From a virus: a DNA stretch of 31,090 nt. This document shows, piece after piece, positions 3,294 through 31,008 of the stretch (position 1 is its first letter; each line of letters opens with the position of its first letter). The notes under the pieces are model-generated. The model saw only the letters and a program-made list of their open reading frames with translations. It did not search any database and had not been told where the DNA came from. Position numbers and translations under genes: made by a program. Where the stretch lies: positions 1 to 31,090 of IMG/VR virus record IMGVR_UViG_3300035698_034749. One strand, 5' to 3'.

Positions 3294-5201
3294 ATGGCTA
3301 AAAACAGAAAAAAATTAGTTAGCGATATAATATCAGATATAAAAGATAATATTTCTCTTGAAATAGAGAAAAAAACTTTTATTCCAGATATTATAACATT
3401 TTGTGAGAGTCCAAAGTGGTTAGGACTTCCTTATCATCCTACTAATCCTATTTATTTATATCCTCTTCAAAAAATAATTTTGAAAGTTTTTTATAGAGGT
3501 TCGGTTGGAAATAAGAATTTGAAGTTAACAGAAGTAGAAATAGAAACTTGTAAAAAATTACAACTTATTGATGATGATAAGGGAAATGTATTAGGAAAAT
3601 ATTATAATGATGACGTTTTTAGAGAATTAGTTCTGGTTTGGGGAAGACGGAGTGGAAAAGATTTTCAAGTAAGTATTATTGCTCTTTATGAGGCGATGAA
3701 ATTATTAGAATGTCCAGGAGGAGACCCTTATTCTTTATATGATATATCTTCTTCAACAACTATCAATGTATTGACTATTGCTAATTCAAAAGACCAAGCT
3801 CGAAGAGCTTTTGATGAGATTAGAGAAAAACTTATTTTTAGTGAATATTTTTCAAGTAAATATATGAAAGAAGGACTTGGGGCTTCTTCACTTTATCTTT
3901 TAACTCCAAAAGATAAAGAAGATAATAAAAATTTCAAAGAAAAAGGAGTTCCCTTGAAGAAAGGATCTATTGGAATTATAGTTGGACATAGTAATTCTGA
4001 TTCTTTATTGGGAATGGGTTGTATGGTTCTTATACTTGACGAAGTTGCTTCGTATAAAACGTCTGGCGGAGCTTCATCAGGTGATAGAATTTATAGTGCT
4101 TTGACTCCTACTGTTTCTACTTATTGTAGAAAAATTTATAAAAAAGATGAAAATGGAGATTTTGTTAAAGACGAACATGAACAAAGAGTTATTATAAAGA
4201 GGATATATGATGGGAAAATAATAAGTATTTCATCTCCAAGAGCAAAAGAAGGAAAATTCTATGAACTTTATAGTACAGGGAAAAATGTTCCGAATAGATT
4301 AGTTTGTCGTCTTCCGACTTGGCAAGTTAATCCTAATCACACTAGAGAATCTTTAAGAACTTCTCAAGCTAGTATGTCTGAATCTGAATTTAATATGGAA
4401 TTCGGAGCTGAATTTAGTGGTATTGGGGCAGAGAATTTCTTTACTGAAGAACAAGTTAATTTATGTTTTAAGGGACATAACTTACAAAATAATAGTATGG
4501 GTAGACCTGGAAAAATTTATTTTGTTCATTTAGATCCTGCTACTTCTAGTCATAACTATGCCTTGGTAATAGTTCATAAAGAATATTATATTAATGTTCA
4601 AACTAATAAATCTGAGTATATTATAGTAGTTGATCATATTAAATATTGGACTCCCACGAGTAGTCCTATAAATCCCAACGAAGTAATTAGTTATGTAATT
4701 AATTTGAAAAGAAGATTTCATATAGGGTTATTAACTTATGATCAATTTGCAAGTAGAGAAAGTATCTTAAAATTAAGAAAAAAAGGAATTCCAAATAAAG
4801 AAACTAGATTTACTCAAAAATATAAAAATCTTATTTACAGAGAAGTTGAAGATTTAATAAACAATGGTAGATTAAAAATTCCTTATGATAATTTATTAAG
4901 AAATGAAATGATTGAACTTCAAAGGAAATTTACTTCAACAGGTTTTAAGGTTTTTCCGAAAAAAGAAGGAGATGGAGTAAAAAGTGATGACGTAATTGAT
5001 TGTGTAGCTGGAGCTTGTTATTCTGCTATAGAATCTCATGTAAATAAATTACCTTTTGCTAAGAGAGTTTATACTGGAACAGAAGGAGTAGGTTCTAATA
5101 TGTTTTGGAGAAATATGCAAGGAGGAGGATATCATGGAACCGGTCAACAAGTTACAAGATTTTTAGAAAGAAAAAATAGTTGGCCTTCGTATAGGAGATA
5201 A
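3294..5201 (+). CDS. terL: Terminase large subunit (packaging ATPase and nuclease)
   Basis: This 635-residue protein has the two-domain layout of phage large terminases. The ATPase domain shows a Walker A variant GRRSGKD (residues 117-123), Walker B MVLILDE with D249 and E250, and a coupling motif SISSPRAKEG (311-320). The nuclease domain (RNase H-like fold in this family) shows HLDPA with D414, TYDQF with D483, and SDDVIDC with D565/D566, which would be the metal-binding acidic residues. It moves DNA into proheads through the portal encoded at 16328 and cuts it. Length is normal for the family and there is no intein, unlike the portal. The ribosome site upstream of ATG 3294 is weak, which suggests translation coupled to the gene before it. 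I see no clear small terminase nearby. Confidence 0.95.
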   Translation: MAKNRKKLVSDIISDIKDNISLEIEKKTFIPDIITFCESPKWLGLPYHPTNPIYLYPLQKIILKVFYRGSVGNKNLKLTEVEIETCKKLQLIDDDKGNVLGKYYNDDVFRELVLVWGRRSGKDFQVSIIALYEAMKLLECPGGDPYSLYDISSSTTINVLTIANSKDQARRAFDEIREKLIFSEYFSSKYMKEGLGASSLYLLTPKDKEDNKNFKEKGVPLKKGSIGIIVGHSNSDSLLGMGCMVLILDEVASYKTSGGASSGDRIYSALTPTVSTYCRKIYKKDENGDFVKDEHEQRVIIKRIYDGKIISISSPRAKEGKFYELYSTGKNVPNRLVCRLPTWQVNPNHTRESLRTSQASMSESEFNMEFGAEFSGIGAENFFTEEQVNLCFKGHNLQNNSMGRPGKIYFVHLDPATSSHNYALVIVHKEYYINVQTNKSEYIIVVDHIKYWTPTSSPINPNEVISYVINLKRRFHIGLLTYDQFASRESILKLRKKGIPNKETRFTQKYKNLIYREVEDLINNGRLKIPYDNLLRNEMIELQRKFTSTGFKVFPKKEGDGVKSDDVIDCVAGACYSAIESHVNKLPFAKRVYTGTEGVGSNMFWRNMQGGGYHGTGQQVTRFLERKNSWPSYRR

Positions 5202-16327: not shown

Positions 16328-19300
16328 ATGGCAATAAAAATGATATTATCAGATAATTCTCCTAAAAACAAGAAAAGGATGGTTAATGCATCTGGGGGGA
16401 AAGCAGTAGAAAATAGTTCTGGTAATTCTCAGAGAAAGTTTGCTGGAGCAAGCAATGTTAGTGTTCCTATAACTAAATCTGCCCAGTTCGCAGGTTCAGG
16501 AGCTAACGTAGTTTGGTCACAACCAATGTTCTTTAGCCCGTTGCACACGCCAATGAACTGGCAGATAGCATCAAGAAGACGCGAGGTTTATCAATGGTGT
16601 CGTTTCTATTATTGTTTTACGCCCGATAATATGGTTCTTATGGCTGATGGAACAGAGAAAAGGATTGATGAAGTTAAAATCGGAGATGAAATTATTAATG
16701 GAGAAGGAGGAATAAGTTTAGTAAAAAAAGTATATACAAGACTAATATCTGAGCCTATTTTAAATTTAAAGATCGGAGGGATTAATAGGAAGATTCGAAC
16801 TACTTTTGAACATGAAATCCCTAGGGTTTCTGAAAGTAATTGGTTAAAATCTGATCTCACAACTCCATCTTTGCGTAGGAAAGGAGAAAGAATTCGTGAA
16901 AATGGACAAGTTGAATTAAAAGAAGAATGGGATTCTGTTAAAACTATTGAAATTGGAGATAGATTATTTTTACCTAGAACTTTAATTGGAAATGGGTTTG
17001 ATAAAGAAAAATATAATGATGAAATATTTTATCTACTTGGTTTATTTTTAGCCGAAGGTTCATATTATTGGTATAAATATAAAAGAAAAAAAGAACCTAA
17101 AGCTCTTCGTTTTTCAATTCATGCTAAAGAAGTAGAAACTATTGGTAGGAAAATAGAAAATATAGTTAGTAAGTTAGGTTTATCTGTTTGTCATTATCAT
17201 CAGAATAATGAAGAGTGTGTAGATCTTGTTTGTTTTAATACTAAACTTGCTAAATACTTTTATAAGATTGTTGGAGAAGGATGTAAAAGGAAAAAAATTC
17301 ATAAAGATTTTCTTAATAATGCTAATGAGGTTCAACTTTTATTATTTCTTGCAGGTTATATAGATGGAGATGGTTGTATTGATCCTCATCATGGTTGTCA
17401 AATTATAACTGCTTCTGATATTTTGGCATCACAGATTCCTTTTATTCTAGAAAAACTTGGATTTACATTTTCTATTTATAAAACAAAACCAGAAATTAGA
17501 AGAATTCCTAATAATAAATTATCAAGTAAAAAAATATATAATTATAATATAAGAATATCTCGGCATTCATTGGTAACAAGTAATCTATTGAAATATTCTG
17601 TAAATAAGAATATTTGTCTTGAAACTCATCATACAAAATATAGAGAATATCTTTATCTTGGAGATAAATTATATAGAGCAGTGTGTGGTATTGAGAGAGA
17701 GTTTTATGAAGGAGAAGTTTTTGATCTAGAACTAAAAGATGTACATAGTTACTGTGTGAATAGATGTGTTGTCCATAATTCAAATGAGCCGAAGGTAGCT
17801 GCCGGAGTAGATTTTTATTCTAATTTTTCTATGAATAATTTTAAATTAGAATGTAAGAGCAAAAAGGTTTTAAAATATTATGAGAAACTTGCTGATAAGT
17901 TAGAATTATCTGAGAAATTAAATTATATCAGTCATGAATATTTTCTTTTAGGAGATGTTTTTCCATTCTTAGAAATTTCTTGTCCCAAATGTGGCGGACG
18001 AGGAATTACTTCGGAAGGAGAAAGATGTAGGCATGAAGATGGAACCTTTAAATCAGTTAAAGTAATGAATCCTGACTATATGGAAGTTAAGAGCAATCCA
18101 CTTGCATCTGAGCCAGAATATTATTTAGTTCCTGATGAGGAATTAAAAATGCTTATTACTAGAAGAGAACCAAGAAAACTTTATGACAATTTACCAGATG
18201 AATTAATAGCTCTTGTTTCTTCGGGACAACCGATTCCACTTTCTTCCAGATCTGTTAGTCACATAAAACATAATGCAAGTCCTTATGGTACTTTTGGAAA
18301 TTCTATGTTACAACGTTTATTTACTATGCTTGCATATAAGACAAAGATAATGACTGCCAACTGGATAGTTGCTGAAAGACTCATAGTTCCTGTTAGAGTT
18401 GTTAAGGTTGGAGAGAAAGAACGTCCTGCTACCGAAGCAGATTTACAAGATATTGTCAATCAATTATCAGCAGTAGCAAATGATCCTAATTTAACTATTG
18501 TTACTCATCATGCGATAGACTTCGACTGGGTGGGAGCTTGTCATGCCGCAGATACTGAAATATTAACAATTCATGGCTGGAAAAGATTTTATGAAATTGA
18601 TGAGAATGAAATTGTTGGTACATATAATACTCAGTTTAAAGAAGTGCAGTTTCAACAAGTTCAAGAATATCATGAATATGATTTTAAATCTACTGATAGA
18701 TTGAAGATGTATCATTTCAAGGCGCATTCTGTTGATATTAACGTTACTCCAAATCACAGAATGCTTGTAGAACGTAATGGAGTTATGAAAGAAATTTATT
18801 CTCAGGAAGTTAAACATAATGATAAATTTATTTCAACTGTAAATTGGAGGGGGATAATTCCTTCTGTTTTACCCTATTCACATTCTTCTCTTTCTCATTT
18901 AACTCTTGATGAATATCTTGAACTTATAGGTTATTATATAACTGAAGGTGGAGCGAAAGAACATAAACATATTAGTTTAGAAAATAAACTTATTCGAGGT
19001 TCTACTTTTAGCCAAAGAGAAGAAAGTCCTATTTATAACTCTATGAAAAAATTGATTAATAAAGTTTGTCCAAGATATTCGGAACATAAAGATAAAAGAT
19101 ATACACAAGTTTGTTCTTCTATGACAATAAATAGTTCTGAAATCGGAGAATATTTTGCTAAGGAGTTTGGTTCTCATTGCTGGAATAAAAAAATTCCAAG
19201 ATGGATTAAAAACCTTCCAAAAGATAAATTAAAAATCCTATATGATGCTATGATGGCTGGAGATGGGAATATAAGATATGATGGTTTACAGCCTAGATAT

Positions 19301-21850
19301 AAATATACTACTACGTCTAGAACATTATCTGATGATTTTTCTGAAATTTGTTTGAAATTAGGTTATTTTACTATTCTGAATATAGAGAAATCTGAGAAAC
19401 AAAATATAAGAACATCTTATATTTTGTTTTGGTCCGAGGGAAGACGACATGTAAAATATAATATTAGAAAACAACATATTAAGAGAGCAGACTACGAAGG
19501 GAAAGTTTATTGTGTAAAAGTTCCTAATACATGGATCGTAACAAGAAGAAATGGCAGGATTACTGTTCAGGGGAATACTGGGAAGATCCACAATATTACT
19601 CAGGAACTGGAATATGTAGGAAAAGAGATGTTAGACGGGCTGATGTTAAATCAAGCTATCTTGAACGGCGAGGCAGCCGGGTATAATTGTATGGATGAAG
19701 ATACTTTAACTTTAACTAATTCAGGTTTTAAAAGATATAATGAAATAAATGAAATTGATAAAATTGCTTGTTATAATCCAACAACTAGAGAAGTAGAATA
19801 TCATCCTTATAGTCAAAAATATGTATATGATTATGAGGGAGATCTAATTCATTTTCAGACTACAAGAATAGATGTTAGAGTAACTCCAAATCATAAAATG
19901 TATACTCAAAAGAGAGATCATAACAAATATGAATTTACTGAAGCAAAAGATATAAAAAGAAGATCTAGATTTATTGGTAGAGTAGAGGGTTTTTCCGGGA
20001 ACTACACTAAAAAAGTAAAGATAGGAGATACAGAATTATCAATTTATGATTATTGTGAATTAGTTGGTTTTTATGTTTCAGAAGGATGCACTGCTGCCGA
20101 AAAGAGAAAAAATAGAATTAATCAATTAACTACTAGTATTCATCAGTCTAAAAACGGTAAGGCATATAAACAAATAGAAAATTTATTTAACCGTTCTTTT
20201 CATACTCATCACGTCACTCATAACGGTTTTCAGGTTTATAATCCTGAATTGTCAAAACATTTAAAAGAAAATTATGGTGGACATGCATGTTATAAGAAAT
20301 TAACTCCTTTTATTAAGAATCTTGTGCCAGAATGTCTTGAAATTGTTATTGAGGCAATGGCAAAAGGAGATGGACACATTTCAGGAGAAGAAAAAGAAAA
20401 GAAATATATAACTTATTGGACTTCTAGTCATCAATTAGCTGAAGATTTTGCAGAAATTAGTTTTAAGTGCGGTTATTCAGTTATGATAAAAGAGATTAAG
20501 AAAAAAAATAAGAAAATTTATTTTAATAAAACTGGTCATCGGTTTATAACTCGTCATCCTGTATATGTTGTTTATGTTTCCAAAGGACGAAAAGGAAAAA
20601 ATCCTGTTTTGGATTCAAGAAGTGTTAGATATGATCATAAAGAAATAGTAAGAGAACAATATAAAGGAAAAGTTTATTGTTTTGAAGTTCCTTATCATTT
20701 ATTTGTTACAATGAGAAATGGGAAAATAACTGTACAAGGAAACTCCGCTCAGGTTGGAGTTGAAGTTTTAATTCGTAGATTAGAGAATTGGAGAAACAAA
20801 CTCAAGGATTGGGTAGAGAAACATATATTTTTACCTGTTGCTATGATGCAAGGATTTATAAATGAGGAAGAATCAGAACTTTCTGGTGAAATTATTTATC
20901 TTTATCCTAAATTAATTTGGAATGACTTACAATTAAGAGATAAAACAAATAAAATACAATCACTTATGCAGTTACATGATAAAGGATTAGTGTCTGCTCA
21001 AAGTATTCTTGAAGAATTGGGACTTGACTATGATACGGAAGTTGAAAAAATAAGAGAGGAACAAGTAATGGCTTCTGCTGCTGGAATGATAACTCCTGGA
21101 GCAGGAGGAGGAATGTTAGGGACTATGGGAATGGGTTCGATGCCTGGAGGTGCTGGTCTTCCTATGGAACCTGGATTGATGCCTGGAGGAGGTGGAGGAA
21201 TGGGAGGAGCTGGAGAGATGGGAGGAATTGGGGGAGCTGGAGGAGCTGCTCCGGCCGGAGGAATGGGAGGAGCACCTATGGCAGCACAAACTTTACCTGC
21301 TATAACAAAGAGAGGGAAGGGGAAAAAAGAAGAAGAACAAGTTCCTCCTATGCAGATGATTAAATTGACTAAATTAGAACAGAAAATGTATAAACTTTTA
21401 CAAGAGATGAAGGTTCCTTTTCCTCTATTTGGACAATATTCTGTAAAACTTCCTGGAGAGCAAAGACCATTTCTAATAGATTTTGCTTATCCTAAGATAG
21501 GAGTAGGAATAGAAAGTGATGGAAGCATATGGCATGAAAGAGAGGATTTTGCACAGAGGGACAGAATAAGAGATCAGAAATTAGCAAGTGTGGGATGGAG
21601 AATTTTGAGATTTAAAGAAGATGCAATAGAAGATCATTTAGATGCCGTATCGGATATAATTTATAAAAATATAGTGGAAGCAGGGAAAAAATTAAAAAAG
21701 AAAGCGGAGGGAAATAATGAAATTATCAAATATGCCACTGCTTCTGAATTTTTAGAAAATAATAAGGCAGAAAATATAGGAATAAATGTAGTAACTATGC
21801 CACAAAATATAGGTTATGTATATTTAATTGGGACAATTAATAATGTATAA
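16328..21850 (+). CDS. Portal protein with three inteins and C-terminal nuclease-like domain
   Basis: The 1840-residue precursor becomes about 753 residues after removal of three inteins (residues 96-484, 738-1083, 1121-1472). The exteins join as ..WCRFYY-SNEPKVAAGVDFYSNF.., ..DFDWVGA-TGKIHNIT.. and ..GEAAGYN-SAQVGVEVL.. The extein matches large-phage portals: FLLGDVFPFLEI, a small Cys cluster (CPKCGGRG), MNPDYMEVKSNPL, YYLVPDEELKML, a Gly-Thr-Phe-Gly loop and the long helix region LEYVGKEMLDGLMLN. The portal forms the ring through which DNA is packaged and to which the tail joins. After VGVEVLIRRLENWRNKLKDW and a Gly/Met-rich linker (21074-21290) comes a DUF559/Vsr-like domain. ATG 16328 has only a weak ribosome site. 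The stop overlaps the next gene. Confidence 0.88.
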   Translation: MAIKMILSDNSPKNKKRMVNASGGKAVENSSGNSQRKFAGASNVSVPITKSAQFAGSGANVVWSQPMFFSPLHTPMNWQIASRRREVYQWCRFYYCFTPDNMVLMADGTEKRIDEVKIGDEIINGEGGISLVKKVYTRLISEPILNLKIGGINRKIRTTFEHEIPRVSESNWLKSDLTTPSLRRKGERIRENGQVELKEEWDSVKTIEIGDRLFLPRTLIGNGFDKEKYNDEIFYLLGLFLAEGSYYWYKYKRKKEPKALRFSIHAKEVETIGRKIENIVSKLGLSVCHYHQNNEECVDLVCFNTKLAKYFYKIVGEGCKRKKIHKDFLNNANEVQLLLFLAGYIDGDGCIDPHHGCQIITASDILASQIPFILEKLGFTFSIYKTKPEIRRIPNNKLSSKKIYNYNIRISRHSLVTSNLLKYSVNKNICLETHHTKYREYLYLGDKLYRAVCGIEREFYEGEVFDLELKDVHSYCVNRCVVHNSNEPKVAAGVDFYSNFSMNNFKLECKSKKVLKYYEKLADKLELSEKLNYISHEYFLLGDVFPFLEISCPKCGGRGITSEGERCRHEDGTFKSVKVMNPDYMEVKSNPLASEPEYYLVPDEELKMLITRREPRKLYDNLPDELIALVSSGQPIPLSSRSVSHIKHNASPYGTFGNSMLQRLFTMLAYKTKIMTANWIVAERLIVPVRVVKVGEKERPATEADLQDIVNQLSAVANDPNLTIVTHHAIDFDWVGACHAADTEILTIHGWKRFYEIDENEIVGTYNTQFKEVQFQQVQEYHEYDFKSTDRLKMYHFKAHSVDINVTPNHRMLVERNGVMKEIYSQEVKHNDKFISTVNWRGIIPSVLPYSHSSLSHLTLDEYLELIGYYITEGGAKEHKHISLENKLIRGSTFSQREESPIYNSMKKLINKVCPRYSEHKDKRYTQVCSSMTINSSEIGEYFAKEFGSHCWNKKIPRWIKNLPKDKLKILYDAMMAGDGNIRYDGLQPRYKYTTTSRTLSDDFSEICLKLGYFTILNIEKSEKQNIRTSYILFWSEGRRHVKYNIRKQHIKRADYEGKVYCVKVPNTWIVTRRNGRITVQGNTGKIHNITQELEYVGKEMLDGLMLNQAILNGEAAGYNCMDEDTLTLTNSGFKRYNEINEIDKIACYNPTTREVEYHPYSQKYVYDYEGDLIHFQTTRIDVRVTPNHKMYTQKRDHNKYEFTEAKDIKRRSRFIGRVEGFSGNYTKKVKIGDTELSIYDYCELVGFYVSEGCTAAEKRKNRINQLTTSIHQSKNGKAYKQIENLFNRSFHTHHVTHNGFQVYNPELSKHLKENYGGHACYKKLTPFIKNLVPECLEIVIEAMAKGDGHISGEEKEKKYITYWTSSHQLAEDFAEISFKCGYSVMIKEIKKKNKKIYFNKTGHRFITRHPVYVVYVSKGRKGKNPVLDSRSVRYDHKEIVREQYKGKVYCFEVPYHLFVTMRNGKITVQGNSAQVGVEVLIRRLENWRNKLKDWVEKHIFLPVAMMQGFINEEESELSGEIIYLYPKLIWNDLQLRDKTNKIQSLMQLHDKGLVSAQSILEELGLDYDTEVEKIREEQVMASAAGMITPGAGGGMLGTMGMGSMPGGAGLPMEPGLMPGGGGGMGGAGEMGGIGGAGGAAPAGGMGGAPMAAQTLPAITKRGKGKKEEEQVPPMQMIKLTKLEQKMYKLLQEMKVPFPLFGQYSVKLPGEQRPFLIDFAYPKIGVGIESDGSIWHEREDFAQRDRIRDQKLASVGWRILRFKEDAIEDHLDAVSDIIYKNIVEAGKKLKKKAEGNNEIIKYATASEFLENNKAENIGINVVTMPQNIGYVYLIGTINNV
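16613..17779 (+). mobile_element. Portal intein 1 with LAGLIDADG endonuclease, 389 aa
   Basis: It starts with Cys96 (CFTPDNMVLMADGTEKRIDE) and ends in VVHN, followed by Ser485. The splicing parts are the N-terminal block with Cys1, TTFEH (TxxH-type block B), a block F-like GEVFDLELKDVHSYCVN, and the terminal His-Asn. The endonuclease part shows two LAGLIDADG helices: LLGLFLAEGS and FLAGYIDGDGC. Both carry the acidic residue expected for a metal-binding active site, so homing activity is possible. It is clearly different in sequence from inteins 2 and 3. Confidence 0.9.
18539..19576 (+). mobile_element. Portal intein 2 with LAGLIDADG endonuclease, 346 aa
   Basis: It starts with Cys738 (CHAADTEILTIHGWKRFYEI) and ends NGRITVQGN before Thr1084. 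Block B is NVTPNHRM and block F is YEGKVYCVKVPNTWIV. The endonuclease helices are LIGYYITEGG and LYDAMMAGDGN. The residue before the final Asn is Gly rather than the usual His, and +1 is Thr, both known but less common. It resembles intein 3 along its whole length. Confidence 0.9.
19688..20743 (+). mobile_element. Portal intein 3 with LAGLIDADG endonuclease, 352 aa
   Basis: It starts with Cys1121 (CMDEDTLTLTNSGFKRYNEI) and ends NGKITVQGN before Ser1473. Block B is RVTPNHKM and block F is YKGKVYCFEVPYHLFV. The endonuclease helices are LVGFYVSEGC and VIEAMAKGDGH. It is only 37 extein residues downstream of intein 2 and shares its C-terminal TVQGN and several inner phrases (ADYEGKVYC against REQYKGKVYC), which indicates common origin. 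Confidence 0.9.
21350..21685 (+). other. DUF559/Vsr-like nuclease domain at portal C-terminus
   Basis: Residues about 1675-1786 of the portal precursor. Order of motifs: LTKLEQKMYKLLQEM helix, RPFLIDFAYPKIGVGIESDG with Asp1718 and Glu1729, a WHERED loop with His1736, then RDRIRDQKLASVGWRILRF. This follows the DUF559 pattern 'DF..p.....IEvDG..H....D..Rd..L...Gw.vlRf' of Vsr-related PD-(D/E)xK nucleases. The key acidic residues and His are present, so it may be active. It is in the same frame as the portal, separated by a Gly/Met-rich linker. Confidence 0.8.
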
Positions 21851-22295
21851 AAAATATAACTTATCAAAAGTTGCTTATAAGAGGATTAGAGATAGAGGTA
21901 TTAATTGGAAAGAAAGATATCGCCAGAGATCTATTCAGTTGAAGAGAAGATTTGATAAAGATATAGGACCAATGGCTTATTTGAGATGGGAAGGACATGA
22001 TTATACAACTGATTCTGATTATTTTGTTGTAGCTGGTCCTGCTATGACAAAAGATTTGAAAAAGAGATTTTTTGCAGGAATTAAGAAAATGCCTCGTGAT
22101 CCAAGAGCTAAAATATATGCTCCAAGTGGAGAATATTTTTCTACATTAATGGGAGCTTTAAGTCATTTAAGAGATAAGTGGGCAGTTCCTTTTCCTAGAG
22201 GAGTATCAAATTATACACTTCGAGATTTAGTGAATGTAAACATACCAAGACATGTTAGGGGGTCAACTATTTCTTCTATTAAGAAGGAAAGTTAA
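21843..22295 (+). CDS. Unknown phage protein, 150 aa
   Basis: ATG 21843 is preferred over TTG 21828, and it overlaps the end of the portal gene by eight bases. It begins MYKKYNLSKVAYKRIRDRGI, another variant of the F/Y-N-L-x-K-I/V-A phrase. Then come a basic helix (WKERYRQRSIQLKRRF) and a compact mixed region (AYLRWEGHDYTTDSDYFVVA, KIYAPSGEYFSTLMGALSHL, VPFPRGVSNYTLRDLV). No family is recognised. Its place directly after the portal fits a small head or connector protein. A gap of about 110 bases follows. Confidence 0.7.
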   Translation: MYKKYNLSKVAYKRIRDRGINWKERYRQRSIQLKRRFDKDIGPMAYLRWEGHDYTTDSDYFVVAGPAMTKDLKKRFFAGIKKMPRDPRAKIYAPSGEYFSTLMGALSHLRDKWAVPFPRGVSNYTLRDLVNVNIPRHVRGSTISSIKKES

Positions 22296-22379: not shown

Positions 22380-22407
22380 GTAACACAAAATTTTGAGGAA
22401 AATAATT

Positions 22408-22638
22408 ATGAATGTTTTGAAAGAAAAGAAAAATAGAATAAGAAAAATTAAGAATAGTACTAGAAGAAGAATGCGAAATTTAATAAAAGGAAAATTTGGG
22501 ATAACAGGTAATTGCTGGTGTCCTGTTTGTAAAAAAGAATTTAAACATGAATTAGGGATTCCTTGTTTTCAAACAAAATGTCCTGAATGTAAAGGAAATT
22601 TAATGAGAAAACATAATCTGGAAGGAGAAAATGAATAA
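22408..22638 (+). CDS. Small zinc-ribbon protein, 76 aa
   Basis: ATG 22408 with GAGGAAA eight bases upstream is preferred to TTG 22393. A strongly basic N-terminal third (KEKKNRIRKIKNSTRRRMRN) is followed by the zinc ribbon GNCWCPVCKKEFKHELGIPC and then FQTKCPECKGNLMRKHN. It is the most diverged of the four copies of this module: the GPGG lead-in is reduced to GITG and the last knuckle reads CPECKG. The stop overlaps the next start by one base. Function unknown. Confidence 0.7.
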   Translation: MNVLKEKKNRIRKIKNSTRRRMRNLIKGKFGITGNCWCPVCKKEFKHELGIPCFQTKCPECKGNLMRKHNLEGENE

Positions 22639-22877
22639 TGAGATTTGGTAGATTTAGTCAGAATGCGGGAGAAAGATTGGGTAGAGAAGAATTCGGTAGA
22701 GGAAGAGGATTTGGTAGGAGAATGAGATCTTATGAACCAGGTCATTATAGAGCAGGACCAGGAGGAGAATGTGAATGTCCTCAATGTAATAAAAAATTTT
22801 CTCATATAGTTGGAGAACCTTGTATGTATAGAACCTGTCCGGATTGTGGAACAAAATTAGTTAGAAAAATAGATTAA
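22638..22877 (+). CDS. Small Arg/Gly-rich zinc-ribbon protein, 79 aa
   Basis: GGAGA lies upstream of ATG 22638. The N-terminal half is rich in Gly, Arg and Phe (RLGREEFGRGRGFGRRMRSY) with RGRG steps typical of flexible nucleic-acid-binding tails. The C-terminal half is the zinc ribbon (AGPGGECECPQCNKKFSHIV, then GEPCMYRTCPDCGTKLVRK). A role in RNA or DNA binding is plausible from composition only. Confidence 0.75.
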   Translation: MRFGRFSQNAGERLGREEFGRGRGFGRRMRSYEPGHYRAGPGGECECPQCNKKFSHIVGEPCMYRTCPDCGTKLVRKID

Positions 22878-22926
22878 AAGAATCAAAAAATAATTGATTT
22901 ACTAGAATAATAAAGAAGGGAAAGTA

Positions 22927-23148
22927 ATGAAATATAGTCAATTAAAACAAAGTATAAAGAAGTGGGCACAATTAGGTAGAGGAGGAAAACCCCTCGGTAG
23001 AAAAGGAGGTCCTCTTAAGGCTGGCCCTGGAGGAAAGTGCGAATGTCCTAAGTGTGGTAAGGAATTTGAACATAAAAGAGGAGTACCTTGTATGGAGAGA
23101 AAATGTCCTAAGTGTGGAGTCAAATTAGTTAGGAAAGATGAAAAATAA
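22927..23148 (+). CDS. Small zinc-ribbon protein, 73 aa, near-copy of the module at 12766
   Basis: GAAGGG precedes ATG 22927. A basic leader (LKQSIKKWAQLGRGGKPLG) with one K-x-A-Q site is followed by AGPGGKCECPKCGKEFEHKR and GVPCMERKCPKCGVKLVRK. The module nearly matches the one in the 310-residue protein at 12148 in both protein and DNA, which suggests duplication about 10 kb apart. The next gene begins inside its last codons (23138). Confidence 0.8.
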   Translation: MKYSQLKQSIKKWAQLGRGGKPLGRKGGPLKAGPGGKCECPKCGKEFEHKRGVPCMERKCPKCGVKLVRKDEK

Positions 23149-23441: not shown

Positions 23442-26400
23442 ATGTCTTTTAAAAAAATAGCAATTATAGATATTACAGCTCTTAATCATCCAGAAGGATG
23501 GGAGATATATAATCTTCCTAATCAAATTAAGACAGCTTCTATCGATCTTTCTATAGATGAAGATTTAGGGGGATTCGATTTAAAACAAGCTACAAAAGAG
23601 TTTCCAGAACATCTCTATATGAAAATTTTTGCTATTAAAAAAGATGAACCTAATGATAATGGAGACGCTTTTTCAGAAGATGAATTACAAAAATCTACTC
23701 ATACTTTTATTGGAGTTCCTCTTTTTACTAATCACCAAAATGATGATGTGGAAAAAGCAAGAGGTGAGTGTGTCCATGCTTGGTATGATAAGAAAAAAGG
23801 AGGGATTTTTCTTGTAGCTCGTGTTGATAAAATTGCCTATCCCAGGTTAGCAAGAGCTATAGAGCAGAAATACGTAAAAGGAACATCCATGGGCACTAGC
23901 GTAGAATATTCTTGTTGTTCTATTTGTCATAAAAAAAGCGAAACACCTGAAAATTATTGTACTCATATTAAAGAAAGAAAAAATAGAAATTTCTATGGAG
24001 ATATTAAGTGCGCTTATCATGAAGATTCTAATGTTCCAGATGATGAAAAATGTCCTTTGTGTGGTTCGATAAGAAAAACTGCAAAAATAATAAAACATAA
24101 TGGAACAAAGATATATGAACATAATTATGGATTGAGATTTATTGAAAATAGTTTTGTTGTGAGTCCTGCTTGTCATGAATGTGGAGTAAGTTGTATTCTT
24201 CATGTTCCTGAACTACAAAAGAAAGTAGCTTCATTAAGAGAAACAGTTGATGAATTAATTAAATATTCAGAGAGAAAAGAAATTCCCGAAGAATTAAAGA
24301 AAGTAGCAGGAGTTAGAGAATTAAACGATCTAAAAGAAAGTATGACTAAATTAGAAACCGTTGTCCAAAGTATGTTAAAACAAAAAGAACAAGTTTCTAT
24401 GGAATATGTTTCTGATTTAGTTAAAGCAATGGCAGACGTACAGGGAATAGCAGATGAACTAGTGGAGATGGGCTATGCAAAACTTCCATCTCCTACAGGA
24501 ATTACAGAAGAAGGAGATGCTACTCTTGAACCACAAACATTTTCTGAACCAGTTGGGGTAACTGGGACTGTTCCTCAAATAGGACAAGGAGAAGGACAAT
24601 TTAATACTCAGGAACTTGGAGGAATTGGTTCTATAACAAAACCTGCAAAATCTTTTAAAAAAATAAAGGATTTTTTAAGTATAAGTGGAAAGTTGTTAAA
24701 TAAAGTATCTTCTTTGAAAAATATTTTATTTAAAAATAAACAAAAGGATAAAAACATGGCAGATATTATTACAGAAGTTTCTGCTAATATAAAAGATCCA
24801 GAATCTTTAAAAATTTTAATAAGTAAAATAGATGGTCAAATTTTTATTACAAAAGCAGAAGGAGAAAAAATTATAAAGGTTTCAGATATTACTGAGTTTC
24901 CTGAAGAAATGCAGGAATTAATTAAAAAAGATCCTGAGAGAGCGGGACAATTAATTTTAAAAAATGATAATTTGAAAGAAACTAGAGGAGTAAATATGTC
25001 TAATAAAAATACAAAAACAGCAGCGGATTCAAGTAATCATGAAGTGATTACAGAAAAACAATTAGAGAAAAAAGAAGAATCACTGCACCCTAGATTAGAT
25101 ACTAGCTATAATACTATCACAGAGGGAAGTGAACAACTATCTCGAGGTTCTGATTTAGAAAATTTAACTACAAGTGAAAGTCCTGAAACTCATAAGGGTT
25201 CATATGAAACTATTACGGAAGATCAACTAGATCTGTCAAACGTTACGGCAGAGATAATTCATTATAATGATACTCCAGATGTGATTACAGAAAAACAATG
25301 GGATGAAATGAGTAGACTTGTAAGCGCTAAACTTAGCGAAGATTATACTTCTGTTATAACAGATAAACAATTAAGAGAACTTCTCCTTGCTCATAGATTT
25401 ACAGGTCCGATTGATATTATTACTCAAAAACAACTTGAAGGTATAGACATGACTGAAGGATTAAAAAGATGGGCTAGTAAAGAATATACACAATCATTAA
25501 CTCAGGTAGCTACTAAAGCTATTGTGGATTCTATAGTTAAATTTAATAAATCACCTAAGGAATTAGCAAAGATAGCTTCTTGGATTAGCGATAATGATAA
25601 AGTAAAATCAAAAGTTGCTTTTTTGTCAGTTATGAATGCCTTACCTAATAAAAAAGAAGAAAGAGAAATAATAGCAAATAAAGAAAGGTATTTTAGCAAA
25701 AAAGCTTCTTCTTCAATTACTCCTACGGTTGATGCTTTGATAATTGCTGTTGCCGACAATGCAAAATTTGGTTTGAAAGCAGAAGATGTCTTTGATTATA
25801 TTTCTTATAGTCTTAGAAGTAAAACCGCTATGGCAAAGGTAGATGAACTGGTACAAATAAAAATGGGAGATGTCGATACGTTAGATAAAAAAATTATAAA
25901 TAAATATGATGCCTTTGAGACTGCTATAAAAGAGTTAAGTAAACCTGAAGATGGTAAATATAGAATTTATGCGACCCTTGAAGATGTCGATGCTCCTGTT
26001 ACTGATAAAGAAGGTTTTTTGAAAGGACTTAAAAAGTTAGCACAACAAGAAATTGGTAGTGATGTTGCTGCTGCTATTATTAAGGTTCAAGTTGGAGATA
26101 ATGGAGAATTAATTATAGATATAGAAGAAGGAGGAAAAAATGAAGTTAGTGCTGATGAACTTGGAAATATCATAGAAGGTCCAGTAGAAGATATAGAAAT
26201 GAAAGAAAAAGAAAACGAAGAATCTCCTTGTGCAACAGCGATTTCTTCTGATGAACAAGAGAATAAGAAACTTGCTAGTGCAAGAGAAGAGATAGTAAAG
26301 AAAGCTCAAATGATGGGAGGAGAAATGGGGGGTCAAGGAGGAGCTTCTCAAGGTCCAGGAGCTGGAGCAAGTCTTCCTATGGCTCCAGGAGCCGGGGCTG

Positions 26401-29066
26401 ATACTGCTCCTCTTGAGACATTCACAGGAGAACCTGAAATGGGAGAAGAAGAAGGAACAGGAGAAGAAGATCTTGAACCATTGCCTCCGGGTTCTATTTG
26501 CCCTGTTTGTGGCAGTCATGATGTTGATGTTGTGGCAGGAACAGCAAGATGTAAAAATTGTGGTTCTGAGTTTAATATAAAGATAGAATTAGAATTTACA
26601 AAATACAAAGGTGTAAGTCCTGAGGGAGAAGAAGGAGAAGAAGGAGAAGGAGAAGAATTAGGAAACGAAGAGGGAGAGTTTGGGGAGGGAGAAGGTTTTG
26701 CACTACCAGAAGAAGAAACTCCTGCCGTTGCTGCTTATACTAAATTGACTCCAGAAACTTTAAAGAAAATTGGAGAAAAAAAGATTAAATTAGGAACAAT
26801 TAGTCCTGCTACCGGAAAAGCAAATACCTTAGATTTGGGAGAAGGTAATCATGTCTGTCTGGATACAGGAACAAGATATAAAGTTTCCTATGTAACAGAT
26901 AATAAGGCGAAAGAGATTTGGGGACAATGGACATGGATTCCTAAAACAGCGATGATAGATTGTCCTTCCTGTAAAAAAGCAAAACAGAAATTTGTTGAAG
27001 CTCTTAAAAGGGCTGAAATAAAAGAAGAAAATTTTGAAAAAATGGAATTACGGGAGAAAGTTAAGGTAATTGGTAAATTAGTAAAAGCAGGAGCAATTAA
27101 GTCAATTAAAACAGCAAGTAAAGAAGGTTCTGTCTTAGAAGATTATAAACTTGCCTATGGTACTTATGGAAAGAGTTTTCCAATTGAGGGGTGTAGGGAA
27201 AAACTTGCTCGTAGATTTGGACAAAATGCACTTGCTTTAAGCGGACCTTGTGAAGGTCAGAATTTAGTAGATTGTGTTTGTAATCAATTAAAACAAGCAG
27301 ATATTTATACTCATGGTTTGGCAATTAAACTTGCTGAAGCATGGCATGATTGTTCTGGAGATGAAGAATGTATTGCTGATCAAGTTCGTGCAGGATACAC
27401 TCTGAGGGAGGCTTCATCTATTTGCGAAACCTTAAAAATTGCAGTTGCGGCTCCAGAAGATTTGTTAGCAGATGAACTGGAAAATCAAGGGGAAGAAGAA
27501 ACTGGAATCGAAGGACCTCCAACAGAACCAATTGAAGATATAGATCCATTCGAACTTGAAGAAGGAACAGTAACAATAGAACTTCCAAAAGAAGTTGCAG
27601 AACAAATAGGAGAAAAAGTAGATGAAGCTTTGGGAGAAGCAGGTTCGGAAGAAATAGAAGTGCCTGAAACTCCTATTGAAGAACCTGGAGAAATTGGACC
27701 TGTAGAAACAGGTGAGCCAGGAGAAGAAATTTTTGAAGAAACTAAACCTGTTGAACCTGTTGATGAAGGAGTTCTTGAGGAAACCAAACCTGCTGAGATT
27801 CTAGAAAATGAAACAGATGAAAATGGAACAATAGAGACTGAAGAACAAGAAGAAAAAAATAATAAAGTAGAAATAAGCCTTGACGGTCAAAAAATAAGCG
27901 AATCTGAATATAGTTTAAAAGAAGGTTCTAAAATGAAAAGTAAAGTAGGAAAGACAGGAAGAATTAGTATGGATCTTTCTTCTGTTATTAATACTATAAA
28001 TAAAAAAACAGGAGAAAAAGAGATTCAACAAGAAAATGCTCAAGATTCTACAGATATAGGTTCTTATACTGCCGGAGAAGATGGAAGTAAAATGGGACAT
28101 GAAAATGAAACAATTCCGTCTGCTCAAAAACCAAACGTTCCAAGAGATAATGCCACAATGGTAGAAGAACCTACTGAGTTAAATCCTGAAGATAAACCTC
28201 AGCCTGTTATCCCTTCTGATAAAGCAACTATGGGGCATGAAGATGAAGTTGGTTTAGCAGGAGGAGATACCAGATATACAGGTGGAGACAAAGGACAAGG
28301 CAAAACAGAAGTAGCTTCTATTGAAAAAGAAAATATAAAAAAAGCAGAGGAAGAAGATGATTTTGATATTATGCATATGAGAGGTTTTGGTTCAAGTAAG
28401 GAGGGTTTATCGAGGTTGGCAAAAAGAATAATTGAAGCTGGAGATAAGAAACTGGAACCGAAAGCTCCTGTTTCTGTTGATAAAGATATTCAACCGATTC
28501 AAGATAAAGGAACATTGGGTAACGAACCAAAGTTTGATCCTGATGAACCGACTAAAACAGAAGGGAATAAAACTGAATCTTTAATGGGACATGAAAATGA
28601 GACATTAGGAGATATTCCGAAATCTCCTGCTGATCATCCTTCAATTCCTGCTAATGATGCTAGGATGGGGAAAGAGGAACTTTCTCCTGAAAAGCAGACT
28701 AAAGATAAAGGCACGGTTATAGCCAAGGGCGATAGGGAGTCTGAAGCTATTAGGGTTGCTGGTAGAATGCTTGAAGAAAAGAAGATTACAGCTTCTGAGC
28801 TTCAAAAAAAGATAGAAGAATTAAAATCCTATAAGCTTGCTCAAATCAAAGATTTTGAAAAATCAATCTTTGCGAGCAAAAAAGGACTTGACACTGTGTC
28901 GGACGGTATGTCTCAAGCCGTAATTATAAATGAGACAAGTAGTGTGAGGAACTCTAAAGATGATTTGTCAAATAAATTAGCTAGTTTATTTAGTCTTGAA
29001 CAACAAAATCAATTAGCTGATGAGGACTCGACAACTCAACTAAGAAGAAGTTTTGGAAAAAAATAA
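23442..29066 (+). CDS. Prohead protease fused to giant scaffold-like region, 1874 aa
   Basis: AAGGA precedes ATG 23442. Residues 1-260 are a phage prohead serine protease: TFIGVPLFTNHQNDDVEKAR with likely catalytic His98, and YVKGTSMGTSVEYS with likely Ser149. Cysteine clusters follow (CSICHKK..NYCTHI, KCPLCGS, CHECGVSC) that probably bind zinc. A coiled coil (about 260-320) leads to a region with two internal starts (Met439, Met519). Then come five ITEKQL repeats, a long acidic part, another zinc ribbon (ICPVCGSHDVD..RCKNCGSEF), a Cys-rich domain (27180-27430), a Glu/Pro-rich tail and MGHENE repeats. It should cut scaffold and itself during head maturation. The usual family size is a few hundred residues, so the fused part probably acts as scaffold, as in lambda C/Nu3. 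Confidence 0.82.
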   Translation: MSFKKIAIIDITALNHPEGWEIYNLPNQIKTASIDLSIDEDLGGFDLKQATKEFPEHLYMKIFAIKKDEPNDNGDAFSEDELQKSTHTFIGVPLFTNHQNDDVEKARGECVHAWYDKKKGGIFLVARVDKIAYPRLARAIEQKYVKGTSMGTSVEYSCCSICHKKSETPENYCTHIKERKNRNFYGDIKCAYHEDSNVPDDEKCPLCGSIRKTAKIIKHNGTKIYEHNYGLRFIENSFVVSPACHECGVSCILHVPELQKKVASLRETVDELIKYSERKEIPEELKKVAGVRELNDLKESMTKLETVVQSMLKQKEQVSMEYVSDLVKAMADVQGIADELVEMGYAKLPSPTGITEEGDATLEPQTFSEPVGVTGTVPQIGQGEGQFNTQELGGIGSITKPAKSFKKIKDFLSISGKLLNKVSSLKNILFKNKQKDKNMADIITEVSANIKDPESLKILISKIDGQIFITKAEGEKIIKVSDITEFPEEMQELIKKDPERAGQLILKNDNLKETRGVNMSNKNTKTAADSSNHEVITEKQLEKKEESLHPRLDTSYNTITEGSEQLSRGSDLENLTTSESPETHKGSYETITEDQLDLSNVTAEIIHYNDTPDVITEKQWDEMSRLVSAKLSEDYTSVITDKQLRELLLAHRFTGPIDIITQKQLEGIDMTEGLKRWASKEYTQSLTQVATKAIVDSIVKFNKSPKELAKIASWISDNDKVKSKVAFLSVMNALPNKKEEREIIANKERYFSKKASSSITPTVDALIIAVADNAKFGLKAEDVFDYISYSLRSKTAMAKVDELVQIKMGDVDTLDKKIINKYDAFETAIKELSKPEDGKYRIYATLEDVDAPVTDKEGFLKGLKKLAQQEIGSDVAAAIIKVQVGDNGELIIDIEEGGKNEVSADELGNIIEGPVEDIEMKEKENEESPCATAISSDEQENKKLASAREEIVKKAQMMGGEMGGQGGASQGPGAGASLPMAPGAGADTAPLETFTGEPEMGEEEGTGEEDLEPLPPGSICPVCGSHDVDVVAGTARCKNCGSEFNIKIELEFTKYKGVSPEGEEGEEGEGEELGNEEGEFGEGEGFALPEEETPAVAAYTKLTPETLKKIGEKKIKLGTISPATGKANTLDLGEGNHVCLDTGTRYKVSYVTDNKAKEIWGQWTWIPKTAMIDCPSCKKAKQKFVEALKRAEIKEENFEKMELREKVKVIGKLVKAGAIKSIKTASKEGSVLEDYKLAYGTYGKSFPIEGCREKLARRFGQNALALSGPCEGQNLVDCVCNQLKQADIYTHGLAIKLAEAWHDCSGDEECIADQVRAGYTLREASSICETLKIAVAAPEDLLADELENQGEEETGIEGPPTEPIEDIDPFELEEGTVTIELPKEVAEQIGEKVDEALGEAGSEEIEVPETPIEEPGEIGPVETGEPGEEIFEETKPVEPVDEGVLEETKPAEILENETDENGTIETEEQEEKNNKVEISLDGQKISESEYSLKEGSKMKSKVGKTGRISMDLSSVINTINKKTGEKEIQQENAQDSTDIGSYTAGEDGSKMGHENETIPSAQKPNVPRDNATMVEEPTELNPEDKPQPVIPSDKATMGHEDEVGLAGGDTRYTGGDKGQGKTEVASIEKENIKKAEEEDDFDIMHMRGFGSSKEGLSRLAKRIIEAGDKKLEPKAPVSVDKDIQPIQDKGTLGNEPKFDPDEPTKTEGNKTESLMGHENETLGDIPKSPADHPSIPANDARMGKEELSPEKQTKDKGTVIAKGDRESEAIRVAGRMLEEKKITASELQKKIEELKSYKLAQIKDFEKSIFASKKGLDTVSDGMSQAVIINETSSVRNSKDDLSNKLASLFSLEQQNQLADEDSTTQLRRSFGKK
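24743..24758 (+). promoter_or_regulatory. Internal ribosome site and ATG in the protease gene (Met439)
   Basis: AAAGGA (24743-24748) lies seven bases before an in-frame ATG (24756). The peptide that would start there, MADIITEVSANIKDPESL, looks like a natural N-terminus after a Lys/Asn linker. It could give a 1436-residue product without the protease. Confidence 0.45.
24984..24998 (+). promoter_or_regulatory. Internal ribosome site and ATG in the protease gene (Met519)
   Basis: AGAGGAG (24984-24990) lies five bases before an in-frame ATG (24996), better than the ribosome sites of most genes in this window. The product would begin MSNKNTKTAADSSNHEV just before the ITEKQL repeats and be 1356 residues long, a candidate free scaffold. 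Confidence 0.55.
25040..25440 (+). repeat. Five diverged ITEKQL coding repeats
   Basis: EVITEKQLE, ETITEDQLD, DVITEKQWD, SVITDKQLR and DIITQKQLE occur about every 25-45 codons. A shorter sixth form NTITEGSEQL lies between the first two. The DNA differs between copies, so this is old, selected protein repetition rather than recent duplication. Confidence 0.8.
28089..28680 (+). repeat. Diverged MGHENE coding repeats near the scaffold C-terminus
   Basis: KMGHENETIP, NATMVEEP, KATMGHEDEV, GTLGNEPKF, LMGHENETLG and ARMGKEELS recur with Pro/Asp-rich spacers. The pattern is about D-x-A-T-M-G-H-E-N-E. Function unknown; the even spacing suggests repeated binding sites. Confidence 0.65.
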
Positions 29067-29912: not shown

Positions 29913-30300
29913 CAACCTAAAAAACTTGTCCACCTTGCAATGTGAATTGCATAAAATAAACCGGACTCATATCGGTGAAACCTAAGTCTTTTAAAATTAA
30001 GAAGATATGGCAATACCGAGGGAAGTTTAAAGAAATTTCAAGTAATGAATAAAAAATTGAAAATGAAAAAAGACAAATTATATAAAGTTAAGAAAACATC
30101 TATGAAAAAAATGGGAAGTATATACAAAATTGATGAATATAAAATTGGAATTTCTAATAACCCCGTAGAGACTTGTTATAAATATAACAGAGTGTCAGAA
30201 CTGAGATGTTCTGGTGCTAACACGTCCGGCTCTCTTTTAAATTTATTAGAAGAGATGATGGTATAGTCCAGTCCCCAGGAAACTGGTGAGAATATAAATG
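29913..30300 (+). mobile_element. Group IA self-splicing intron in the capsid gene, 388 bases
   Basis: Pairings read from the sequence. P1: exon GGTGGAT (29906-29912) with GTCCACC (29928-29934), ending in the required U-G pair at the splice site. P10: AACTT (29923-29927) with exon 2 GAGTT. P2: TGCAA/TTGCA near 29936-29950. P3: CCGGAC (29961-29966) with GTCCGG (30224-30229). P4: TCGGT (29972-29976) with ACCGA (30015-30019). P6: GGG/CCC (30020, 30161). P7: G-[A]-GACT (30168-30173) with AGTCC (30265-30269), including the bulged A. P8: CTCTTTT (30232-30238) with AGAAGAG (30248-30254). P9 near 30270-30285. Two extra hairpins after P7 (30175-30188, 30197-30212) fit subgroup IA. The last base is G30300. 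Confidence 0.92.
30045..30266 (+). CDS. Small reading frame inside the intron, possible endonuclease remnant
   Basis: A 73-codon frame starts in the P6 loop, where T4 td-type introns carry their endonuclease genes, and then runs through the P7-P3-P8 core. Its middle, GSIYKIDEYKIGISNNP, resembles the opening strands of GIY-YIG/T5orf172 nucleases (IY.I....KIGIS..P). The rest is dictated by the ribozyme core and lacks the expected Arg and later motifs. It has no good ribosome site. It is probably a decayed homing-endonuclease gene; chance is possible. Confidence 0.3.
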   Translation: MNKKLKMKKDKLYKVKKTSMKKMGSIYKIDEYKIGISNNPVETCYKYNRVSELRCSGANTSGSLLNLLEEMMV

Positions 30301-31008
30301 GAGTTACCCCAGGGAGCTTTGGCAAGATATGAAAGAGATGTTGCTGCTATTGCTTGGGTGGTTTCCCGAAGAGGTGCAGTTCCTGATCAAATTCAGGAAG
30401 GTGAAGAAGTTCTAGTTCCTACTTTTGAAATTGCTGCAAATCCGACAGTAAGACTTAGTGAGATTAAAGCTCGTAGGTTCTATATTGTGGACAGGGCTCA
30501 GATTAAAGCCAAAGAAGCAATTCAAAAGGAAGAAGATACAAATATCTTTAATGCTTTACTTGCTGCTGTTCTTGCTGCTCAGACAGTAACCAACTATGGA
30601 GTTTTAACTACTGCTGCTCTTAATGAAGCTTTTATGCAAATCGAACAACATGATTTAGTTTGTGCTAAAATTATTGTTCACGCGTTTCAGTATGCGGCAA
30701 TAAGAACATTTGGTAAGGATTTCTATGATGAGGCAACTCAAAGAGAGATTATTACCACAGGTTTGTATGGACATTTGTGGACAAGTGATATTCACGTTAG
30801 TTCACGAATGCTTACAACTACTGTTCTTTTGACTGCTTCGCCTGAGACAGTTGGAGCTTTTCCGATCAGACAAGACATTACCGTTTTGCCTGCGGACGAT
30901 CCTCGCAAATTACGGATCGGCTGGGTCATTTATGAGGAAGTCGGAATTGTAGTTATCAATGATTATGCAATTTCAAGAATCAATGTTGTGGAACCAGAAG
31001 TTTCTTAA
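30301..31008 (+). CDS. Major capsid protein, exon 2 (residues 56-290), HK97 fold
   Basis: The true exon begins at GAG 30301; the ATG at 30298 contains the final G of the intron and is not a start. It encodes ELPQGALARYERDVAAIAWV, then a beta/alpha core (VLVPTFEIAANPTVRLSEIK, RRFYIVDRAQIKAKEAIQKE), a helix-rich Ala segment, TTGLYGHLWTSDIHVSSRML, and an end VLPADDPRKLRIGWVIYEEV followed by GIVVINDYAISRI. This run is typical of a widespread HK97-type major capsid family. With exon 1 the shell protein has 290 residues, normal for the family. It lacks the N-terminal delta domain of longer capsid proteins, in line with a separate scaffold. Confidence 0.92.
   Translation, partial: ELPQGALARYERDVAAIAWVVSRRGAVPDQIQEGEEVLVPTFEIAANPTVRLSEIKARRFYIVDRAQIKAKEAIQKEEDTNIFNALLAAVLAAQTVTNYGVLTTAALNEAFMQIEQHDLVCAKIIVHAFQYAAIRTFGKDFYDEATQREIITTGLYGHLWTSDIHVSSRMLTTTVLLTASPETVGAFPIRQDITVLPADDPRKLRIGWVIYEEVGIVVINDYAISRINVVEPEVS

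Follow-up and report, generated by a model that had tools for sequence, protein, structure and literature searches.

A predicted Vsr-fold nuclease domain is fused to the portal protein throughout one clade of very large phages

Few parts of tailed phages are as conserved as the portal, which is generally viewed as a DNA channel and sensor devoid of enzyme activity; the usual portal stoichiometry is twelve copies. In phage T4, the resolvase gp49 is bound to the portal and frees packaging stalled on branched DNA (PMC9958956), and gp4, a head-completion protein of the PD-(D/E)XK superfamily, is reported to be necessary for packaging (PMC7824862, PMC1189080). Head-borne toxins of the MuF type are patchy and variable (PMC5576092). 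We analyzed a 31,090-nt virus fragment from IMG/VR (IMGVR_UViG_3300035698_034749), referred to below as the window, in which the portal protein, encoded by the open reading frame (ORF) at positions 16328 to 21850, carries a DUF559/Vsr-like nuclease domain in its C-terminal part. The fusion has a single origin on present evidence and is retained in every complete portal of its clade; the domain has a predicted Vsr-like fold, invariant catalytic residues and a history of purifying selection. Portals, nucleases of the DUF559/Vsr kind and nucleases associated with portals have all been described; what appears new is the fixed fusion of portal and nuclease. A preliminary description of the window had already stated that no role was known for such a fusion, and neither a role nor any account of a portal-nuclease fusion was found in the open-access literature searched, a scope outside which most subscription journals fall.

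The two features on which the argument depends are as follows.

16328-21850, + strand: portal protein ORF, 1840 aa including inteins and ~753 aa once spliced; matches phrog_16240 (E value, 4.5e-31) and is homologous to the phage G portal gp14
21365-21685, + strand: DUF559/Vsr-fold nuclease domain, predicted from PF04480, an AlphaFold2 model and the Foldseek match 3r3p; D1718 at 21479, E1729 at 21512, H1736 at 21533, R1748-D1749 at 21569-21574

The preliminary description had placed the fused nuclease at 21350-21685 (residues 1675-1786 of the 1840-aa ORF), and these coordinates proved right. Pfam PF04480 (DUF559) covers residues 1715-1782 with an E value of 5.8e-9 (36.2 bits versus a cut-off of 20.6). 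The same family was matched by 39 of the 39 relatives in alignment A3 (E values up to 0.01), five of which additionally matched a PvuRts1I-like Pfam model. The AlphaFold2 model of the domain had a predicted local distance difference test score (pLDDT) of 85.7. The structural comparison proposed earlier was run with Foldseek and returned the catalytic domain of I-Bth0305I (3r3p) as the top PDB match (E value, 6.3e-5; template modeling score, 0.81 by target), followed by PvuRts1I and, lower down, by AbaSI and an endonuclease-like protein from Neisseria; the matches also included mitochondrial proteins with RAP domains of Vsr fold and, at an E value of 0.34, TnsA. A sequence-profile search agreed (I-Bth0305I; E value, 0.0015). 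Judged by sequence and predicted structure, the portal C terminus bears a DUF559/Vsr-fold nuclease domain, which is the sole DUF559 domain in 10 of 12 large contigs.

The active-site positions named in the preliminary description (D1718, E1729, the D1731-G1732 step and H1736) were confirmed in the window ORF. D1718, E1729, G1732, H1736, D1745, R1748, D1749, W1757 and R1761 are invariant in all 80 distinct complete domains, none of which has lost the acidic residues. The ratio of nonsynonymous to synonymous substitution rates (dN/dS) was 0.042 to 0.111 for close pairs, indicating purifying selection; values for distant pairs were saturated and were disregarded. A decayed or chance domain is ruled out by the DUF559 matches of every relative in alignment A3, the invariant residues and the low dN/dS. 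In five contigs (L046, L047, L080, L145 and L162), an intein of 365 to 387 aa lies inside the nuclease, exactly between the catalytic glutamate E1729 and the following C-D-G, so that these five phages must splice at this point to restore the active site. Native inteins tend to occupy conserved positions close to active sites (PMC3359363). An invariant active site that is invaded by inteins in some phages provides natural evidence that the site is needed. The earlier suggestion that the domain may be catalytic gains from the invariance of its residues in every complete relative found, and these sequence data indicate that the domain is probably an active endonuclease.

The proposed survey of portals for the same fusion was carried out against IMG/VR with the portal core alone and the phage G core as queries, the presence of the domain being scored afterwards and thus independently of the search. 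Among the 106 distinct portal cores, 83 were fused, 19 were domain-less relatives outside the clade (including that of Bacillus phage G), and 4 belonged to ORFs ended by a contig edge; these searches revealed no complete portal lacking the domain inside the clade. With 83 distinct portals showing it, the fusion is no artifact of assembly. A maximum-likelihood tree of the core placed every fused or truncated row on one side of a branch and all 19 domain-less rows on the other, and this branch received 100% support in the Shimodaira-Hasegawa-like approximate likelihood ratio test; the outgroup branches are long, which makes the order within the outgroup unsure and leaves this split unaffected. 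Nuclease and portal distances were correlated (Mantel r, 0.68; p, 0.001), and mean pairwise identities were 49% for the domain, 61% for the portal and 20% for the tail that follows the domain. On present evidence, these sequences point to a single gain of the domain, with no loss seen.

The clade includes contigs of 548, 494, 476, 371 and 334 kb, indicating that its members are very large phages. A tblastn search of the C-terminal part against 50,697 phage records gave weak, partial matches only. The nearest portal cores in phage records are those of Bacillus phage G (gp14), Virus Rctr197k and an uncultured 485-kb phage, none of which carries the domain. In two scans of the GTDB species genomes, neither the domain nor the portal core had a relative, and hence no host was identified; the phage and genome collections searched yielded no member that can be cultivated.

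Assignment of the ORF as a portal gene relies on its family matches in a PHROGs profile search (phrog_16240, as above, and phrog_113; E value, 1.1e-4), the remaining PHROGs matches coming from intein regions, and on its homology to gp14, which is annotated as the portal of phage G. In addition, an intein-free homologue (L031) matched Portal_Mu with an E value of 4e-4, below the family cut-off. The neighborhood is that of a portal gene, with the terminase large subunit TerL at 3294-5201, a protease at 23442-29066 and the major head protein at 30298-31008. The ORF contains three inteins, at residues 96-484, 738-1083 and 1121-1472, which are followed by the linker and, beyond the nuclease, by the tail.

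16613-17779, + strand: intein 1, 389 aa, between RFYY and SNEPKV; Pfam Intein_splicing/LAGLIDADG_3, ends set by intein-free relatives
18539-19576, + strand: intein 2, 346 aa, between WVGA and TGKIHN; Pfam and intein-free relatives
19688-20743, + strand: intein 3, 352 aa, between AAGYN and SAQVGV; Pfam and intein-free relatives
21077-21364 (start approximate), + strand: flexible linker rich in Gly, Met, Ala and Pro, 97 aa, 70% G+M+A+P, with a conserved KRG motif near its end
21686-21847, + strand: C-terminal tail behind the nuclease, weakly conserved (~20% identity)

Because the three inteins splice out, the figure of 1840 aa overstates the portal; the mature length of ~753 aa agrees with that of intein-free relatives (~760 aa). 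The intein load of the portal genes of the clade is very high, with several insertion sites in one gene, the nuclease active site among them, and the longest portal ORF reaches 2416 aa. The inteins are sporadic, 30 of the 85 full portal ORFs being no longer than 800 aa. A zinc-ribbon-like insert (CxxC...CxH, here CPKCGGRG...CRH) occurs in the portal core of most clade members and is absent from phage G, Rctr197k and LR745208 (alignment A6).

The linker, by which the nuclease is attached to the last portal helices, measures 94 to 119 aa in almost every one of 42 relatives. Close to its end, 72 of the 80 sequences with a complete domain have a basic KRG/KKG-like motif, which several members lack. 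The T4 portal has its crown inside the capsid and tolerates a C-terminal GFP fusion with packaging kept (PMC9958956), and the C-terminal region of the P22 portal, part of which is disordered, is directed toward the head interior (PMC4992974). By analogy, the nuclease domains, in twelve copies, would face the head interior near the portal. Outside the fused clade, sister portals L170 and L174 end in a Gly-rich tail, and L173, L177, L183 and L187 carry another C-terminal extension of several hundred residues, which had no Pfam match in L177 and L187. Since sister portals bear such a tail or extension, the portal C terminus of these phages tolerates additions.

Three neighboring genes bear on the function of the domain.

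3294-5201, + strand: TerL (terminase large subunit), own nuclease motif intact; phrog_2 (E value, 1.5e-25); Asp residues conserved in five genomes
21828-22295, + strand: conserved gene overlapping the portal end, 155 aa, candidate partner; found in 201 of 211 fused loci and absent from all non-fused ones
23442-29066, + strand: head maturation protease domain in a 1874-aa protein; phrog_18299 (E value, 9.8e-13)

TerL residues D414, D483 and D565/D566/D569 are the ones conserved in the five genomes, which rules out the portal nuclease as a substitute for a lost TerL nuclease; because these residues are intact, the portal nuclease would be an added activity. The TerL genes of three large contigs (G013; L248 and L250 on G015 and G016) contain an intein-like insert at the Walker A motif (GRR|C). 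The protein encoded at 21828-22295 matched no known family. The counts for its gene refer to loci, which overlap between searches, and not to independent contigs; one extra match, L081, comes from a short fragment of a fused contig. Of the ten fused loci without the gene, eight are on contigs ending close behind or inside the portal, and the other two (L213 and L214) are divergent. The homologue in L216 is the start of a much longer ORF. From this sequence distribution, the product may be an inhibitor or a cofactor of the nuclease, or a mere clade marker. Further downstream, three small tandem ORFs (22393-23148) that are similar to each other and contain CxxC zinc-finger-like motifs had no counterpart in any other fetched contig. 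At GRKLLMVD|ELPQGA, the major head protein gene is interrupted by ~380 nt (29914-30299) that hold a core resembling that of group I introns (Rfam RF00028; 21 bits, under the gathering score); the gene is continuous in L031 and L033.

The preliminary description had considered roles in packaging, in action on host DNA at entry and in the exclusion of rival phages. Vertical and universal inheritance together with strong purifying selection would favor a housekeeping role in the head over a weapon or rival exclusion. We favor, at slightly less than even confidence, a catalytic portal component that acts in DNA processing at packaging or head completion. According to this proposal, a Vsr-fold endonuclease would be a lasting component of the portal, passed on vertically within a single clade of large phages. 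Its twelve copies would hang on flexible linkers of ~100 residues from the portal crown, on the side of the head interior, and these tethered enzymes could act on phage DNA while it is packaged or while the head is completed, candidate acts being the nicking or trimming of aberrant structures or of the last-packaged end at the portal. A role in packaging or maturation is what we infer from the conservation of the fusion. More tentatively, and with doubt prevailing, the portal itself would be an enzyme performing an obligate packaging or release step inside the head, with the 21828-22295 product as its regulator or partner, a head architecture previously undescribed, in a clade of large phages with contigs of up to 548 kb.

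Several observations weigh against a packaging role. The parallel with T4 gp49 is imperfect, since gp49 acts at the motor and the portal C-terminal domain is expected inside the head. A nuclease inside the head would also have to spare the packaged genome, and the head protease encoded at 23442-29066 could cut the linker and free the domain. The full-length model of the L031 portal is poor (pLDDT, 40.5; built from five sequences), so the placement of the domain rests on analogy. Vsr-fold domains can also lose catalysis and only bind nucleic acid, as in FASTKD4 (PMC11879112). Finally, contigs G001 and G012 encode separate endonuclease VII-like proteins. As to whether a lack of other resolvases could be the reason for the fusion, Endonuclease_7 was above its cut-off in 2 of 12 contigs and no RuvC was found in the six contigs searched, most of the contigs being fragments; a TnsA_N search gave no match in any control genome.

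The proximity of the head maturation protease gene and the presence of the basic linker motif in most members would also suit an effector that is released in the head: the protease would cut the linker at KRG/KKG, and the free nuclease would be stored, ejected with the DNA and used early to cut host or host-defence DNA. Precedents exist in the P22 internal head proteins, which sit by the portal and exit together with the DNA or ahead of it (PMC4992974), and in MuF toxins, portal-adjacent head proteins with C-terminal toxin domains and small genes behind them (PMC5576092); a small conserved gene follows here too. Such weapons are, however, patchy and variable, whereas the portal domain is universal, of single origin and under purifying selection; in addition, several members lack the motif and cleavage of the linker is hypothetical, all of which makes ejection unlikely in our estimation. 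A check of self versus non-self, or exclusion of rivals, in which DNA lacking or bearing a modification would be cut on entering the head so that rival or host DNA is not packaged intact, would explain why the phage's own genome is spared. The fold is indeed close to those of the modification-dependent enzymes PvuRts1I and AbaSI, and a minority of the relatives in alignment A3 match the PvuRts1I-like model; nevertheless, the resemblance to PvuRts1I is weaker than that to I-Bth0305I, the modification system that it calls for is hypothetical, and we regard this role as quite improbable.

Nor do we give much weight to a domain that grips or senses DNA in the head without cutting it, for instance as a sensor of fullness or an anchor for a DNA end. 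The RAP domains in the fold search lend it some plausibility: such domains can bind RNA without cutting, and that of FASTKD4, a presumed non-cutting binder, has Asn at the position of the catalytic His (PMC11879112), but all catalytic positions, the His included, are invariant in the portal domains. Least probable by far is that the domain is a selfish homing endonuclease carried along by the portal gene, even though the closest fold is that of an intron homing endonuclease and homing inteins abound in this very gene. Elements of this kind are sporadic, as the inteins are, whereas the nuclease is present in 83 of 83 complete portals and has one origin. Inteins come and go and the nuclease stays, which provides an internal control against homing; the fixed, single-origin distribution, with no complete clade member lacking the domain, largely refutes it.

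The whole clade, with contigs of up to 548 kb, bears the portal nuclease, and its loss was not seen. If the domain cuts DNA, then either DNA is processed at or inside the head in a manner of an undescribed kind, or a dozen nuclease copies are carried into each infection. With respect to known systems, the closest relatives of the portal itself, Bacillus phage G gp14 and its relatives (phrog_16240), have a homologous core (~32% identity), and the phage G side is without the nuclease. The domain has the fold of I-Bth0305I and the EDxHD Vsr-like homing endonucleases (3r3p), with which it has in common the E-x-(D/N)-G-x-x-W motif and the next helix; I-Bth0305I is an intron-encoded mobile enzyme, whereas the portal domain is fixed within a structural protein and shows no sign of being mobile. 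With the DUF559 (PF04480)/MTES_1575 REase family (PDB 3hrl), it has in common D, E-x-DG, H and the RD...GWRILRF signature; the other viral DUF559 matches in a viral fold search are listed as separate proteins, unlike the fused portal domain. FASTKD4 differs by Asn in place of the His that is invariant here. Among proteins of the head, MuF polymorphic toxins resemble the portal nuclease in their head location and in a C-terminal nuclease or toxin domain followed by a small gene, but they are separate portal-binding proteins with patchy, variable domains, whereas one domain type occurs in the 83 portals, and Pfam and PHROGs searches revealed no MuF match in the portal ORF. T4 gp4 belongs to the same broad nuclease superfamily and is associated with the head; it is a separate protein of the TnsA-like branch, to which the portal domain, with best matches to DUF559 and I-Bth0305I, does not belong. 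T4 gp49 (endonuclease VII) on the portal gp20 is likewise a nuclease held at the portal with a role in packaging, but it is a separate protein of unrelated fold that works on motor-stalled DNA, whereas the nuclease described here is fused to the portal itself.

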